DNA from: Microcaldota archaeon
GTDB lineage: Archaea; Micrarchaeota; Micrarchaeia; Micrarchaeales; CABMGC01
Reading direction: 5' to 3'
Length of the DNA stretch: 39,083 nucleotides
NCBI GenBank assembly: GCA_028866785.1
Contig: JAGWHN010000006.1
Coordinates: 1-39,083, forward strand
In this document: positions 103 through 22,015 of the stretch, in pieces
Numbering within the stretch: the stretch's first letter is position 1
How the letters are laid out: the number at the start of each line of letters is the position of its first letter
Program-made: the position numbers and the translations under genes
Notes under the pieces: generated by a model
Told to the model about the DNA's origin: nothing
The model's database searches: none
What the model saw: only the letters and a program-made list of their open reading frames with translations

Positions 103-543
103 TCATACATCAAGCAGAACTTTTATTGACCAGCTTTTTCCAGTTTTCTTTACCCTGAGAAGGTGCGGAGTCACCGCTTTTACATCAAAAAGGGAGATGT
201 ATTCCTTTGACTTTTTGCAGAAGATGCACGCGTTTATCTTGATTTTGTCCTTTTCTTCAGAAATCCTATTCACCTTGAGCTTGAAGGCAGGCACTCCCCT
301 TTGATCAATCTCGGAGACCATGCGCTGCAGCAAAAACCAGACAATCTCATTTTTGTTTGAGGCCCTCTCGGTTATCCTGACAGTTTTTATTTTTGATTTT
401 GATTTTTTGAGCTCCTTTTGGTCAAACATCGTGCCCAGCAGGGCAAGGCCCGAGTTTTCAAGCGCATCCTTGAAGCTCTTTCCATAAGCGACAAAGGCCA
501 CATCCGCGGTGTGCGGAACGTATCGAAAATTAGGCTTTGGCAT
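103..543 (-). CDS. Archaease (activator of RtcB tRNA ligase)
   Basis: The 146-residue protein has the archaease signature near its N-terminus (YVPHTADVAF) and the later KAVTPH block. Archaease speeds guanylylation and turnover of RtcB, the ligase that joins tRNA halves after intron removal. The frame extends 11 codons further upstream, but the ATG at 543 is preferred because a TATA-like element at 561-574 lies about 24 nt before it and the family normally begins just before the HTAD motif. This predicts a leaderless mRNA. RtcB itself is encoded at 20576-22015, and intron-containing tRNAs at 4118 and 20279. Confidence 0.93.
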   Translation of the reverse strand: MPKPNFRYVPHTADVAFVAYGKSFKDALENSGLALLGTMFDQKELKKSKSKIKTVRITERASNKNEIVWFLLQRMVSEIDQRGVPAFKLKVNRISEEKDKIKINACIFCKKSKEYISLFDVKAVTPHLLRVKKTGKSWSIKVLLDV

Positions 544-560
544 GATGCAATATATAGACA

Positions 561-574
561 AATTTATATATATC
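561..574. promoter_or_regulatory. Shared bidirectional TATA element
   Basis: The AT-only stretch TTTATATATA is nearly self-complementary. Its centre is about 24 nt from the archaease ATG (543, minus strand) and about 24 nt from the 5' side of the C/D sRNA (about 591, plus strand). Both distances suit an archaeal TATA box, so one element probably drives the two divergent transcripts. This is inferred from spacing. Confidence 0.55.
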
Positions 575-590
575 AAAGCCCCTTTGTTAT

Positions 591-19489: not shown

Positions 19490-20260
19490 TTATTTGCTGC
19501 CCGTCTTCTGGAAGTACTTGGAGTCGATTAGGATCATGTGGTTGTCCGTGTCGAAGCCTAGTGCTGCCTTGAAGGCGTCCTGGTCTATTGTTATCGTGCT
19601 GTCCGAGTAAGGATCATTGATGTAGAAGGTGTCCTTGTCGTATCCCTTGACCACCACCCAGTGAGGGGATGACTCAAGGTACGGATTGATGACCTTTGCG
19701 TCAATTAGCACAATCGGAATGTTCTTTGAGGAGAGCCCCTTCTTGATCGACTGAAGCGTGACCGTTCCCAGCTCCTCCATCACATTTGCATTCTGGGACT
19801 TCGTCTTAATCTCGTTGAATGATGCGCTGAGCGTGTCTAGGTTGACATTCTCGTAGACCGCGAGCTTCTTCTCGTAGCCCTCGTCCTTTGCATTGGTGAT
19901 TATGCCTGCCTTCGCCCCTCTCTTTGCAAGAGCGTATGCAAGACCATATCTTGATCCATGCCAGACCGATCCGTTCACCGCCTCCTGCCAGATGTCAAAC
20001 TCGGACTCCCTCTTGAGCTTGAAGTTAGGGTCGATGAACTTTAGGACCATCATTGCACATGCGGCAGAGCTTGTGAACTCCTCCGTCTGCGGATAGTGAG
20101 GTATGTCAAACATTACGCTGTCCTTGATCTTTGTGCTCTTTAGCTTGGCGATAAGATTCGCCTTGGGCGCTGATGGCGCCTTTGCGGATTTCTTCATTAC
20201 CTTGGCACGCTTGCTAGCCTTAACAGCTTTTCTTGAATTCGTTTTTGTCTTTTTTGCCAT
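19490..20260 (-). CDS. C39-like cysteine peptidase with Lys/Ala-rich basic tail
   Basis: The 256-residue protein has a strongly basic N-terminal tail (about residues 1-45, rich in Lys, Ala and Ser, like a histone H1 tail). A papain-fold C39-like domain follows, with Cys68 in SSAACAMMVLKF, His200 in SPHWVVVKGYD and Asp216 in FYINDPYS. There is no signal peptide or transmembrane helix. The tail suggests nucleic acid or surface binding. The gene starts 19 nt after the 3' end of tRNA-Leu on the same strand, so the two may share a transcript. A terminator-like hairpin (GTCCC/GGGAC, 19463-19481) follows the stop. Confidence 0.72.
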   Translation of the reverse strand: MAKKTKTNSRKAVKASKRAKVMKKSAKAPSAPKANLIAKLKSTKIKDSVMFDIPHYPQTEEFTSSAACAMMVLKFIDPNFKLKRESEFDIWQEAVNGSVWHGSRYGLAYALAKRGAKAGIITNAKDEGYEKKLAVYENVNLDTLSASFNEIKTKSQNANVMEELGTVTLQSIKKGLSSKNIPIVLIDAKVINPYLESSPHWVVVKGYDKDTFYINDPYSDSTITIDQDAFKAALGFDTDNHMILIDSKYFQKTGSK

Positions 20261-20278: not shown

Positions 20279-20377
20279 TGCAGGGAGGGAGATTTGTTCA
20301 AATACTTTTGAACTCCCGTAGGCCTAAGCCAACAGATCTTGAGTCTGTCGCGTTTGACCAAGCTCCGCCATCCCTGC
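20279..20377 (-). tRNA. tRNA-Leu(CAA) with a 14-nt insertion (probable intron) in the T-loop
   Basis: The cloverleaf: acceptor GCAGGGA/TCCCTGC with discriminator A, D-arm GCG/CGC with GG in the loop, anticodon stem ACAGA/TCTGT with loop CTCAAGA (anticodon CAA), a long leucine-type variable arm, and T-stem GGGAG/CTCCC. The T-loop is 21 nt instead of 7 (20292-20312). Removing 14 nt (for example 20294-20307) restores the consensus loop TTCAAAT. The insertion can form TTCAAA/TTTGAA around AGTA. There is no anticodon-loop intron and no encoded CCA. TTTAATAT about 25 nt upstream is the probable TATA box. Confidence 0.88.
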
Positions 20378-20575
20378 AGCACTAAATATTGTGAGATATG
20401 ATATTAAAGGTTTTGCAAATGCTTGTAGAGTCTTTATCTGATATCTTCTGATATTTATATTTACTTGCTGATTTATACTCGTAAAGCGTGCAATGTTCAA
20501 CAACATATTCACAGAACGTTATGATGCTTCGTTGTTTATAAAGCATCTCTATGTATTCGTATAATAAGTGAGAAA
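20378..20575 (+). promoter_or_regulatory. Intergenic region with rtcB and tRNA-Leu promoters
   Basis: These 198 nt separate two divergent genes. On the minus strand, TTTAATAT (about 20402-20409) fits the tRNA-Leu promoter. For rtcB, TTTATAAAG (20535-20543) is flanked by a 7-bp inverted repeat, GATGCTT (20523-20529) and AAGCATC (20541-20547). A TCTGATAT direct repeat lies mid-region. No convincing coding frame or RNA gene was seen. Confidence 0.45.
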
Positions 20576-22015
20576 TTGGAGTTCAAAAAGGTTGACAGCG
20601 TCAGATTCGAGATTGAAAAGGATAGCTCGCTTGGCATGAATGCGCCAGTGAGGGCATACGCAACCGAGAAGATGCTCGAAAAGATGAAGAAGGACCGCAC
20701 CTTCAACCAGGCCGTGAATGCGACCACCCTTCCCGGAATCGTGGGGAAGGTGATGGTGATGCCAGACGGCCATGAGGGATACGGATTCCCGGTCGGCGGG
20801 GTAGTGGCGTTTGACGCGGAGGAGGGAATCATCTCGCCGGGAGCGATAGGCTTTGACATAAACTGCGGGGTAAGGCTCCTCAAGACGGACCTCACCGAAA
20901 AGGAGGTCAGGCCAAAGCTAGGGCAGCTGATGGACAGGCTATTTGTGAACGTGCCAAGCGGCGTGGGGAGCAAGCTAAAGCTCGGGCTCACGCAGTCCGA
21001 CGTGAAGAAAGTTGCGGAGGAGGGCGCGGGATACATGATCGACAAGGGCTTTGGTTTTGCGGACGATGTGGACAGGATAGAGGAGAATGGGAGGATAGAG
21101 GGAGCGGACATCGACAAGGTGAGCCCGATGGCAAGGAAGAGGGGAATGCAGGCGCTTGGAACCCTTGGGGCGGGAAACCACTTTCTGGAAGTGCAAAAAG
21201 TGGAAAAGATATTCAACGAAAAAATCGCAAAGAGCTACGGACTCTATGAGGACCAGATAGTGATCATGGTCCACACGGGATCAAGGGGCTTTGGGCACCA
21301 GGTGTGCAGCGATTACCTAAAGACGCTTGTGGAGTACCAGCAGAAAAACGGGATAAAGATTGTCGACCCTGAACTTAGCTACGCAAAGATCGGCAGCAAG
21401 GAGGCGGACGACTACCTTGCGGCAATGAACTGCGCGGTCAACTTCGCTTTCACGAACAGGCAGATAATAACCGACTCGATAAGGAAGAGCTTTGAGGAGA
21501 CTTTTGCAAAGGGCTCGGACAAATTGGGGATGGATTTGCTCTACGATGTTGCGCACAACATAGCAAAGCATGAGGAGCATGTCTTTGAGGGGAAAAGGGT
21601 CAATGTCTTCGTCCACAGAAAGGGGGCGACAAGGGCGTTTGCAAAAGGGAGAGACGAGATACCGAAGATCTACAGGAGCGTTGGGCAGCCCGTAATAATC
21701 CCAGGAAGCATGGGAACCGCAAGCTACATACTGTGCGGAAAGGAGGGCGCTATGGAGGAGACATTCGGATCAACATGCCATGGGTCCGGAAGGCTAATGT
21801 CAAGGCATCAGGCAATACGCGATATCCCGGCAGAAAAGACGTTTGGAGACCTCGAGAAAAAGCACATCGAGATAAGGGTCAGGACAAAGAAGCTGATCAG
21901 CGAGGAGGCAGAGTGGGCGTACAAGAATGTCGATGATGTGGTGGGAGTAGTTGAGAGGGCAGGAATTTCGGACATAGTCTCAAGAAATGTTCCGATAGGG
22001 GTCGCAAAGGGATAA
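20576..22015 (+). CDS. rtcB: RNA-splicing ligase RtcB
   Basis: The 479-residue GTP- and Mn-dependent ligase joins RNA 2',3'-cyclic phosphate (or 3'-phosphate) and 5'-OH ends, sealing tRNA exons. The conserved metal and active-site residues are in DINCGVRLL (Cys97), GAGNHFLEV, VHTGSRGFGHQV, DVAHNIAKHEEH and STCHGSGRLMSR (the guanylylated His). The length is that of an intein-free RtcB. The start appears to be TTG at 20576; no in-frame ATG precedes the conserved N-terminus. Its activator archaease is at 103-543. Confidence 0.97.
   Translation: MEFKKVDSVRFEIEKDSSLGMNAPVRAYATEKMLEKMKKDRTFNQAVNATTLPGIVGKVMVMPDGHEGYGFPVGGVVAFDAEEGIISPGAIGFDINCGVRLLKTDLTEKEVRPKLGQLMDRLFVNVPSGVGSKLKLGLTQSDVKKVAEEGAGYMIDKGFGFADDVDRIEENGRIEGADIDKVSPMARKRGMQALGTLGAGNHFLEVQKVEKIFNEKIAKSYGLYEDQIVIMVHTGSRGFGHQVCSDYLKTLVEYQQKNGIKIVDPELSYAKIGSKEADDYLAAMNCAVNFAFTNRQIITDSIRKSFEETFAKGSDKLGMDLLYDVAHNIAKHEEHVFEGKRVNVFVHRKGATRAFAKGRDEIPKIYRSVGQPVIIPGSMGTASYILCGKEGAMEETFGSTCHGSGRLMSRHQAIRDIPAEKTFGDLEKKHIEIRVRTKKLISEEAEWAYKNVDDVVGVVERAGISDIVSRNVPIGVAKG

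Follow-up and report, generated by a model that had tools for sequence, protein, structure and literature searches.

The locus

The window, by which we mean the whole analyzed stretch of 39,083 nt from a Microcaldota archaeon, carries a gene for tRNA-Leu with the anticodon CAA on its minus strand. The gene matches the Rfam tRNA model RF00005 (45.0 bits, E 1.4e-6), with the surplus bases placed in the T-loop. The T-stem GGGAG/CUCCC encloses a loop of 21 nt, which is 14 nt above normal, and no CCA is encoded at the 3' end. Strand, coordinates, anticodon, loop length, the stem GGGAG/CTCCC and the recovery of TTCAAAT upon removal of 14 nt were all found in the sequence as the original prediction had given them. 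The features discussed below are:

20377..20279, minus strand: tRNA-Leu(CAA) gene, 99 nt with and 85 nt without the putative intron (Rfam RF00005 match; aligned to 31 relatives, one of them partial)
20308..20377, minus strand: 5' exon up to position 58, ending in GGGAG UUCAA (comparison of junction 58/59)
20294..20307, minus strand: putative 14-nt T-loop intron between positions 58 and 59 (junction, helix conservation and covariation)
20279..20293, minus strand: 3' exon, AU CUCCC UCCCUGC A (junction comparison)
20310..20313, minus strand: exon strand of the 4-bp central helix, G53 U54 U55 C56 (complements the intron box in 127 of 127 sequences)
20296..20299, minus strand: intron half of the central helix, GAAC, in relatives GRRY (35 substitutions in 127 sequences, none of them non-pairing)
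20307..20309, minus strand: expected 5' splice site within the bulge A57 A58 ^ A (covariation register)
20293..20295, minus strand: expected 3' splice site within the bulge A A ^ A (length 3 nt given a 2-nt slip of the T-stem, and 5 nt without it)
20339..20341, minus strand: anticodon CAA (sequence and Rfam model)
20576..22015, plus strand: RtcB tRNA-splicing ligase, divergent neighbor of the tRNA gene (Pfam RtcB, E 5.3e-165)
103..576, minus strand: archease (Pfam Archease, E 2.6e-21)

Under the settings of this analysis ARAGORN misses tRNA-Leu(CAA); its calls for the window are limited to tRNA-Ala and tRNA-His. The Rfam scan of the window at gathering thresholds returned tRNA matches only. 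Archease belongs to a family of RtcB activators; a CCA-adding enzyme, Trm1 and fibrillarin are also encoded. The nearest relatives of the RtcB bear Micrarchaeota labels and mark the window as micrarchaeal.

Approximately 30 nt upstream of the tRNA gene (within 20378-20447, minus strand) lies TTTAATAT, which we take to resemble an archaeal TATA box. The motif TTTAWW occurs at -40 to -22 in 46 of 72 records, some of which come from the same genome. An ORF resembling C39 peptidases (19490-20260, minus strand) starts 18 nt past the tRNA gene on the same strand. Among the 66 loci having at least 1 kb of sequence ahead of rtcB, 23 show a divergent tRNA-Leu(CAA) within that upstream kilobase. The RtcB of the window is uninterrupted; it is split near residue 96/97 in L005, L013, L066, L067, L068, L069, L072, L073 and L075, and both split proteins tested (L013, L073) contain intein splicing domains.

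Distribution of the insert in Micrarchaeota

Around relatives of RtcB 80 loci were fetched, and BLAST located a homologous tRNA-Leu(CAA) in 31 of them, once as the 5' part only, and found none in the remaining 49. The T-loop is enlarged in all 30 readable genes. BLAST over 301 genomes of the phylum gave some match in 258; from 120 fetched regions and the other loci we obtained 135 distinct tRNAs. A true insert is present in 127 of these and a 7-nt loop in 7; one row (L316) had been misparsed as an 8-nt insert and was excluded. The insert measures 10-21 nt in the 127 distinct tRNAs, most commonly 13 nt, with a single 10-nt case (L063). The parsed carriers that are assigned to a genome represent 132 genomes and the intact loops 12, with zero overlap.

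To count genomes directly we used sequence patterns. The insert pattern gave 137 raw matches in the 301 genomes and its reversed form gave none, which indicates that the insert is not a chance match. Three raw matches (G137, G138, G141) have intact loops and matched only via a downstream CTC; their removal leaves 134 genomes as a lower bound. The original prediction regarded T-arm introns as rare outside some Thermoproteales, a view that has to be modified for the present lineage. An uninterrupted T-loop was indicated by pattern in 16 genomes, 15 of them ordinary and one (G102) with a different insert, and no genome among the 301 has both forms by pattern. Neither pattern matches in 151 genomes. 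One of these, G198, is nevertheless a carrier: its gene (L129) has a 12-nt T-loop insert and escaped the patterns through a changed anticodon loop, CTCAAAA instead of CTCAAGA (A at position 37), and it stands outside the 127.

A wider occurrence of T-loop introns, in many tRNAs of these genomes, found no support in G021, a genome in one 771-kb contig with 40 tRNA matches above the Rfam cut-off: 35 are ordinary by ARAGORN call (their loops individually unread), four missed by ARAGORN have a 7-nt T-loop on reading, and the last is tRNA-Leu(CAA). The same genome contains a low-scoring tRNA-like sequence (L299). Several short 3'-terminal tRNA-Leu matches lie on contigs C14 and C7 of G009, possibly attachment sites of integrated elements.

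Predicted splice junction and bulge-helix-bulge structure

Repeated bases around the insert allow five junctions in the window. If the cut is placed after 2, 3, 4, 5 or 6 loop bases, UUCAAAU is restored in 112, 120, 121, 127 and 93 of the 127 tRNAs, respectively, so that 58/59 (after five loop bases) is the sole junction of the five that is valid throughout. UUCAA and AU on the exon side never vary among the 127, and the restored consensus loop UUCAAAU matches six of the seven distinct parsed orthologues without the intron.

The four exon bases G53-U54-U55-C56 complement an intron box GRRY at a fixed distance from the 3' end in all 127 tRNAs. The box reads GAAC in 93, GGAC in 13, GAGC in 11, GAAT in 9 and GGGC in 1; pairing is broken by none of these substitutions, and ten control offsets pair in 0-1 of 127. 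The insert had been predicted to form its own hairpin. This has to be corrected: T-loop bases UUC of the exon, together with G53, pair with the 3' part of the insert, and a hairpin that uses exon bases is what a splice structure requires.

A second, inner helix is suggested by covariation. Its first pair is Watson-Crick in 95 of 114 distinct loops compared to 70.8 after shuffling (p ~2e-4), the second in 33 of 52 compared to 16.5, and the third in 14 of 29 compared to 7.8, where one must keep in mind that the shuffles ignore relatedness. Shifting the partners of the first pair by one base gives 68 of 114 (65.4 shuffled) and 32 of 93 (32.2 shuffled). For the second pair the shifted controls give 12 of 52 (15.3 shuffled) and, with i2 set against the base two positions ahead of the box, 33 of 52 (25.7 shuffled); the latter is likewise above the shuffles, by a smaller margin than the true register. 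As the inner helix covaries in a register that leaves A57 A58 N unpaired, the 5' bulge has a length of 3 nt, and by the rule for bulge-helix-bulge (BHB) motifs the predicted cut falls after A58. The exon sequences point to this junction, 58/59, as well.

The 3' bulge is less regular. Next to an ordinary T-stem it has 5 nt; a slip of 2 nt in this purine-rich stem (mostly GRGAG/CUCYC among carriers) would shorten it to 3 nt. All four pairs of the slipped stem are possible in 125 of 127 tRNAs, and three T-stem registers are nearly equal in energy (mean -5.51, -5.54 and -5.65 kcal/mol). We do not regard slippage as proven, because the same bases build the ordinary T-stem too. The unconstrained minimum-energy fold of the T-arm is without the full set of three UUC/GRR pairs in 25 of 127.

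An intron for which certain species use 59/60 or 57/58 as the cut site is an unlikely variant of this reading. The repeated A residues allow UUCAAAU at these junctions in 93 and 121 of 127 tRNAs, respectively, and 59/60 is a published intron position according to a review (PMC4090602). However, a cut at 59/60 would leave UUCAAUU in 34 of 127 and a cut at 57/58 a residue other than A at position 58 in 6 of 127, and the covariation fits the 3-nt bulge A57 A58 N with its cut after A58.

Splicing enzymes

The original prediction pointed to the three-unit endonuclease of ARMAN-type archaea, and epsilon2-type EndA is indeed encoded in relatives across the phylum. Members of the splicing endonuclease family turned up in 21 of 22 relatives (none in G006) and in 30 of 30 further genomes. 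Their frames mostly span ~340-470 aa, and many of them contain a pair of domain matches, which agrees with the three-unit form. The match between EndA of G001 and the ARMAN-2 enzyme (4fz2/9w2k, E 1e-152) covers residues 3-382 of 382. With the ARMAN-2 endonuclease as query, matches, some of them weak, were obtained in 280 of 301 genomes. The protein of G261 is 100% identical to the ARMAN-2 enzyme over 383 residues, and the tRNA-Leu(CAA) of this genome has a 13-nt insert; the intron is therefore carried by ARMAN-2 itself or by a strain whose enzyme is identical.

By simple regular expressions, the context of the catalytic tyrosine 236 is present in 50 of 51 proteins (35 of 35 insert carriers), the SVRK motif with lysine 282 in 44 of 51 (33 of 35) and the ARMAN-loop motif QYGxYK with Y160 and K161 in 41 of 51 (33 of 35). 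The residues were located by counting along the alignment of G001 with ARMAN-2. The roles of Y236, K282 and the ARMAN-loop residues Y160/K161 are described in PMC6379350 and PMC12397907, and in the latter the ARMAN-2 epsilon2 endonuclease is reported to cut BHB and bulge-helix-loop substrates. An enzyme for relaxed motifs is thus represented by the epsilon2-type frames of the relatives, from which we would expect one in the genome of the window as well, and the ligase for joining the exons, RtcB, is encoded in the window itself.

Is the insert removed?

We consider it very likely that the 14 extra bases are a very short archaeal BHB intron at 58/59 which is excised by the epsilon2 EndA and sealed by RtcB. 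In the precursor, G53-U54-U55-C56 would pair with the intron bases GAAC and expose two bulges, A57 A58 ^ A at the 5' splice site and A A ^ A at the 3' splice site. Both would be cleaved by the three-unit endonuclease, and the RtcB encoded by the neighboring gene would ligate the exons to an ordinary UUCAAAU T-loop. The earlier reading as a T-loop intron cut by an ARMAN-type endonuclease gains support from the common junction in 127 of 127 tRNAs, the pairing-preserving changes, the covariation in the BHB register, the precise losses described below and the epsilon2-type EndA of relatives.

A retained insert, which would give the mature tRNA an expanded T-loop containing a small stem, is very unlikely, more so than a displaced cut. 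T-loop motifs can tolerate surplus bases beyond position 58, and the stem within the insert is conserved; but this conserved helix consumes G53-C56, bases on which the elbow contacts of the mature T-loop depend. The intron half varies solely in ways that preserve pairing, the loop of insert-free relatives is a plain one of 7 nt, in some combined with a changed T-stem, and the presence of a splicing ligase in the window and of the endonuclease in relatives speaks for removal.

We practically dismiss a degenerate gene copy: only the abnormal loop would favor it, whereas the exon bases UUCAA and AU are the same in all 127 tRNAs, none of the insert-carrying relatives matches the pattern of a second, normal tRNA-Leu(CAA) gene, on which a pseudogene had been made to depend in the original prediction, and the cognate codon UUG is used for 71 of 831 leucines in 24 ORFs of the window, although tRNA-Leu(UAA) might read UUG too. 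The invariant exon bases speak against relaxed constraint, no ordinary second copy was found by pattern in carriers, and the relatives suggest that the genome of the window has no other CAA gene either. A self-splicing group I intron was rejected, as the insert has 10-21 nt, the catalytic core of group I introns some 200 nt or more, and the Rfam scan of the window gave tRNA only.

Gain and loss

The insert was followed on a midpoint-rooted tree of 51 endonucleases. One clade (G102, G104, G112-115, G121, G273) is without the short insert, and the insert-free G137/138/140/141, G143, G205 and G225 are nested among carriers. The insert label changes six times on the tree, four of which are forced by well-supported branches alone; G102 was counted as having a different insert, which leaves the count for the short insert unaltered. 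The insert-free G197 has a very long branch and is unplaced. We read the best tree as one early gain followed by about four precise losses, with a regain in G021 conceivable. Judged by these comparisons, the intron is vertically inherited.

The nested insert-free genes have the loop TTCAAAT, or TTCGAAT in G225. The T-stem is altered in several insert-free genomes, to GTGAG/CTCTC in G137, G138, G140, G141 and G143 and to GGGGG/CCTCC in G205; in G197 it reads GTGAG.

In the outgroup, tRNA-Leu(CAA) has other inserts: 98 extra nt in G102 (L301), giving a T-loop of 105 nt, and inserts in the D-loop in G104 (L302) and G121 (L307).

Relation to known introns and potential function

The kind of intron, an archaeal BHB intron in the T-arm, is already known, and the present case adds a lineage-wide example. 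According to the review (PMC4090602), archaeal T-arm introns lie at positions 53/54, 56/57 and 59/60 and have 11-129 nt. The non-canonical T-arm introns of Thermoproteales and others have both the BHB structure and the location in common with the insert described here. Position 58/59 is unnamed in that list, which ends in "etc.", and the inserts of 10-21 nt include one of 10 nt, below the range of the review. While large-scale intron transposition is described there for Thermoproteales, the Micrarchaeota intron keeps to one site throughout the lineage. A further link is to the epsilon2 system of ARMAN-2, through the near-full-length match of the G001 enzyme and through G261, the genome that matches ARMAN-2 and carries the intron. 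Canonical introns at 37/38 share the BHB rule, and the relative G021 has anticodon-loop inserts as well; the exon half of the helix, however, consists of the elbow-forming bases of the T-loop here and of the anticodon in the canonical introns.

The BHB models of tRNAscan-SE derive from introns of Crenarchaeota together with Euryarchaeota and of Thaumarchaeota, and ARMAN-1 and -2 are listed with multiple-intron tRNAs, as stated in PMC8450103 and PMC4033280, respectively. In the literature searched, we found no description of this T-loop intron in Micrarchaeota and no report of the lineage-wide conservation, the covariation, the precise losses or the 10-nt case. The intron was possibly already listed for ARMAN-2 in the ARMAN endonuclease paper of 2011.

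A hint towards a mechanistic aspect arises from the bases that form the central helix. As the helix occupies U54, U55 and C56 in the precursor, the elbow between D-loop and T-loop should be unable to form before splicing. We offer, as a tentative and rather unlikely idea, that the intron is a folding gate: formation of the elbow and modification of positions 54-58 would wait for splicing, which would order the whole maturation of this tRNA, and slippage of the purine-rich T-stem from one register to another could serve as the switch. The idea extends to tRNA-Leu(UAA), whose insert lies in the partner D-loop, so that both leucine tRNAs reading UUR would be gated at the elbow.

In all eight carrier genomes examined, tRNA-Leu(UAA) has a D-loop insert and an uninterrupted T-loop (L300 and L347-L354: G021, G005, G012, G019, G001, G263, G009, G020). 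This insert is probably a second conserved non-canonical intron.

Such loci yield no gene call from ARAGORN under the settings used here. The broad-specificity epsilon2 endonuclease of the host group has been solved with RNA, which makes the proposed substrate directly testable. With more than 100 natural variants and the precise losses of a minimal, rapidly diverging BHB intron at hand, the sequence limits of its recognition become readable.
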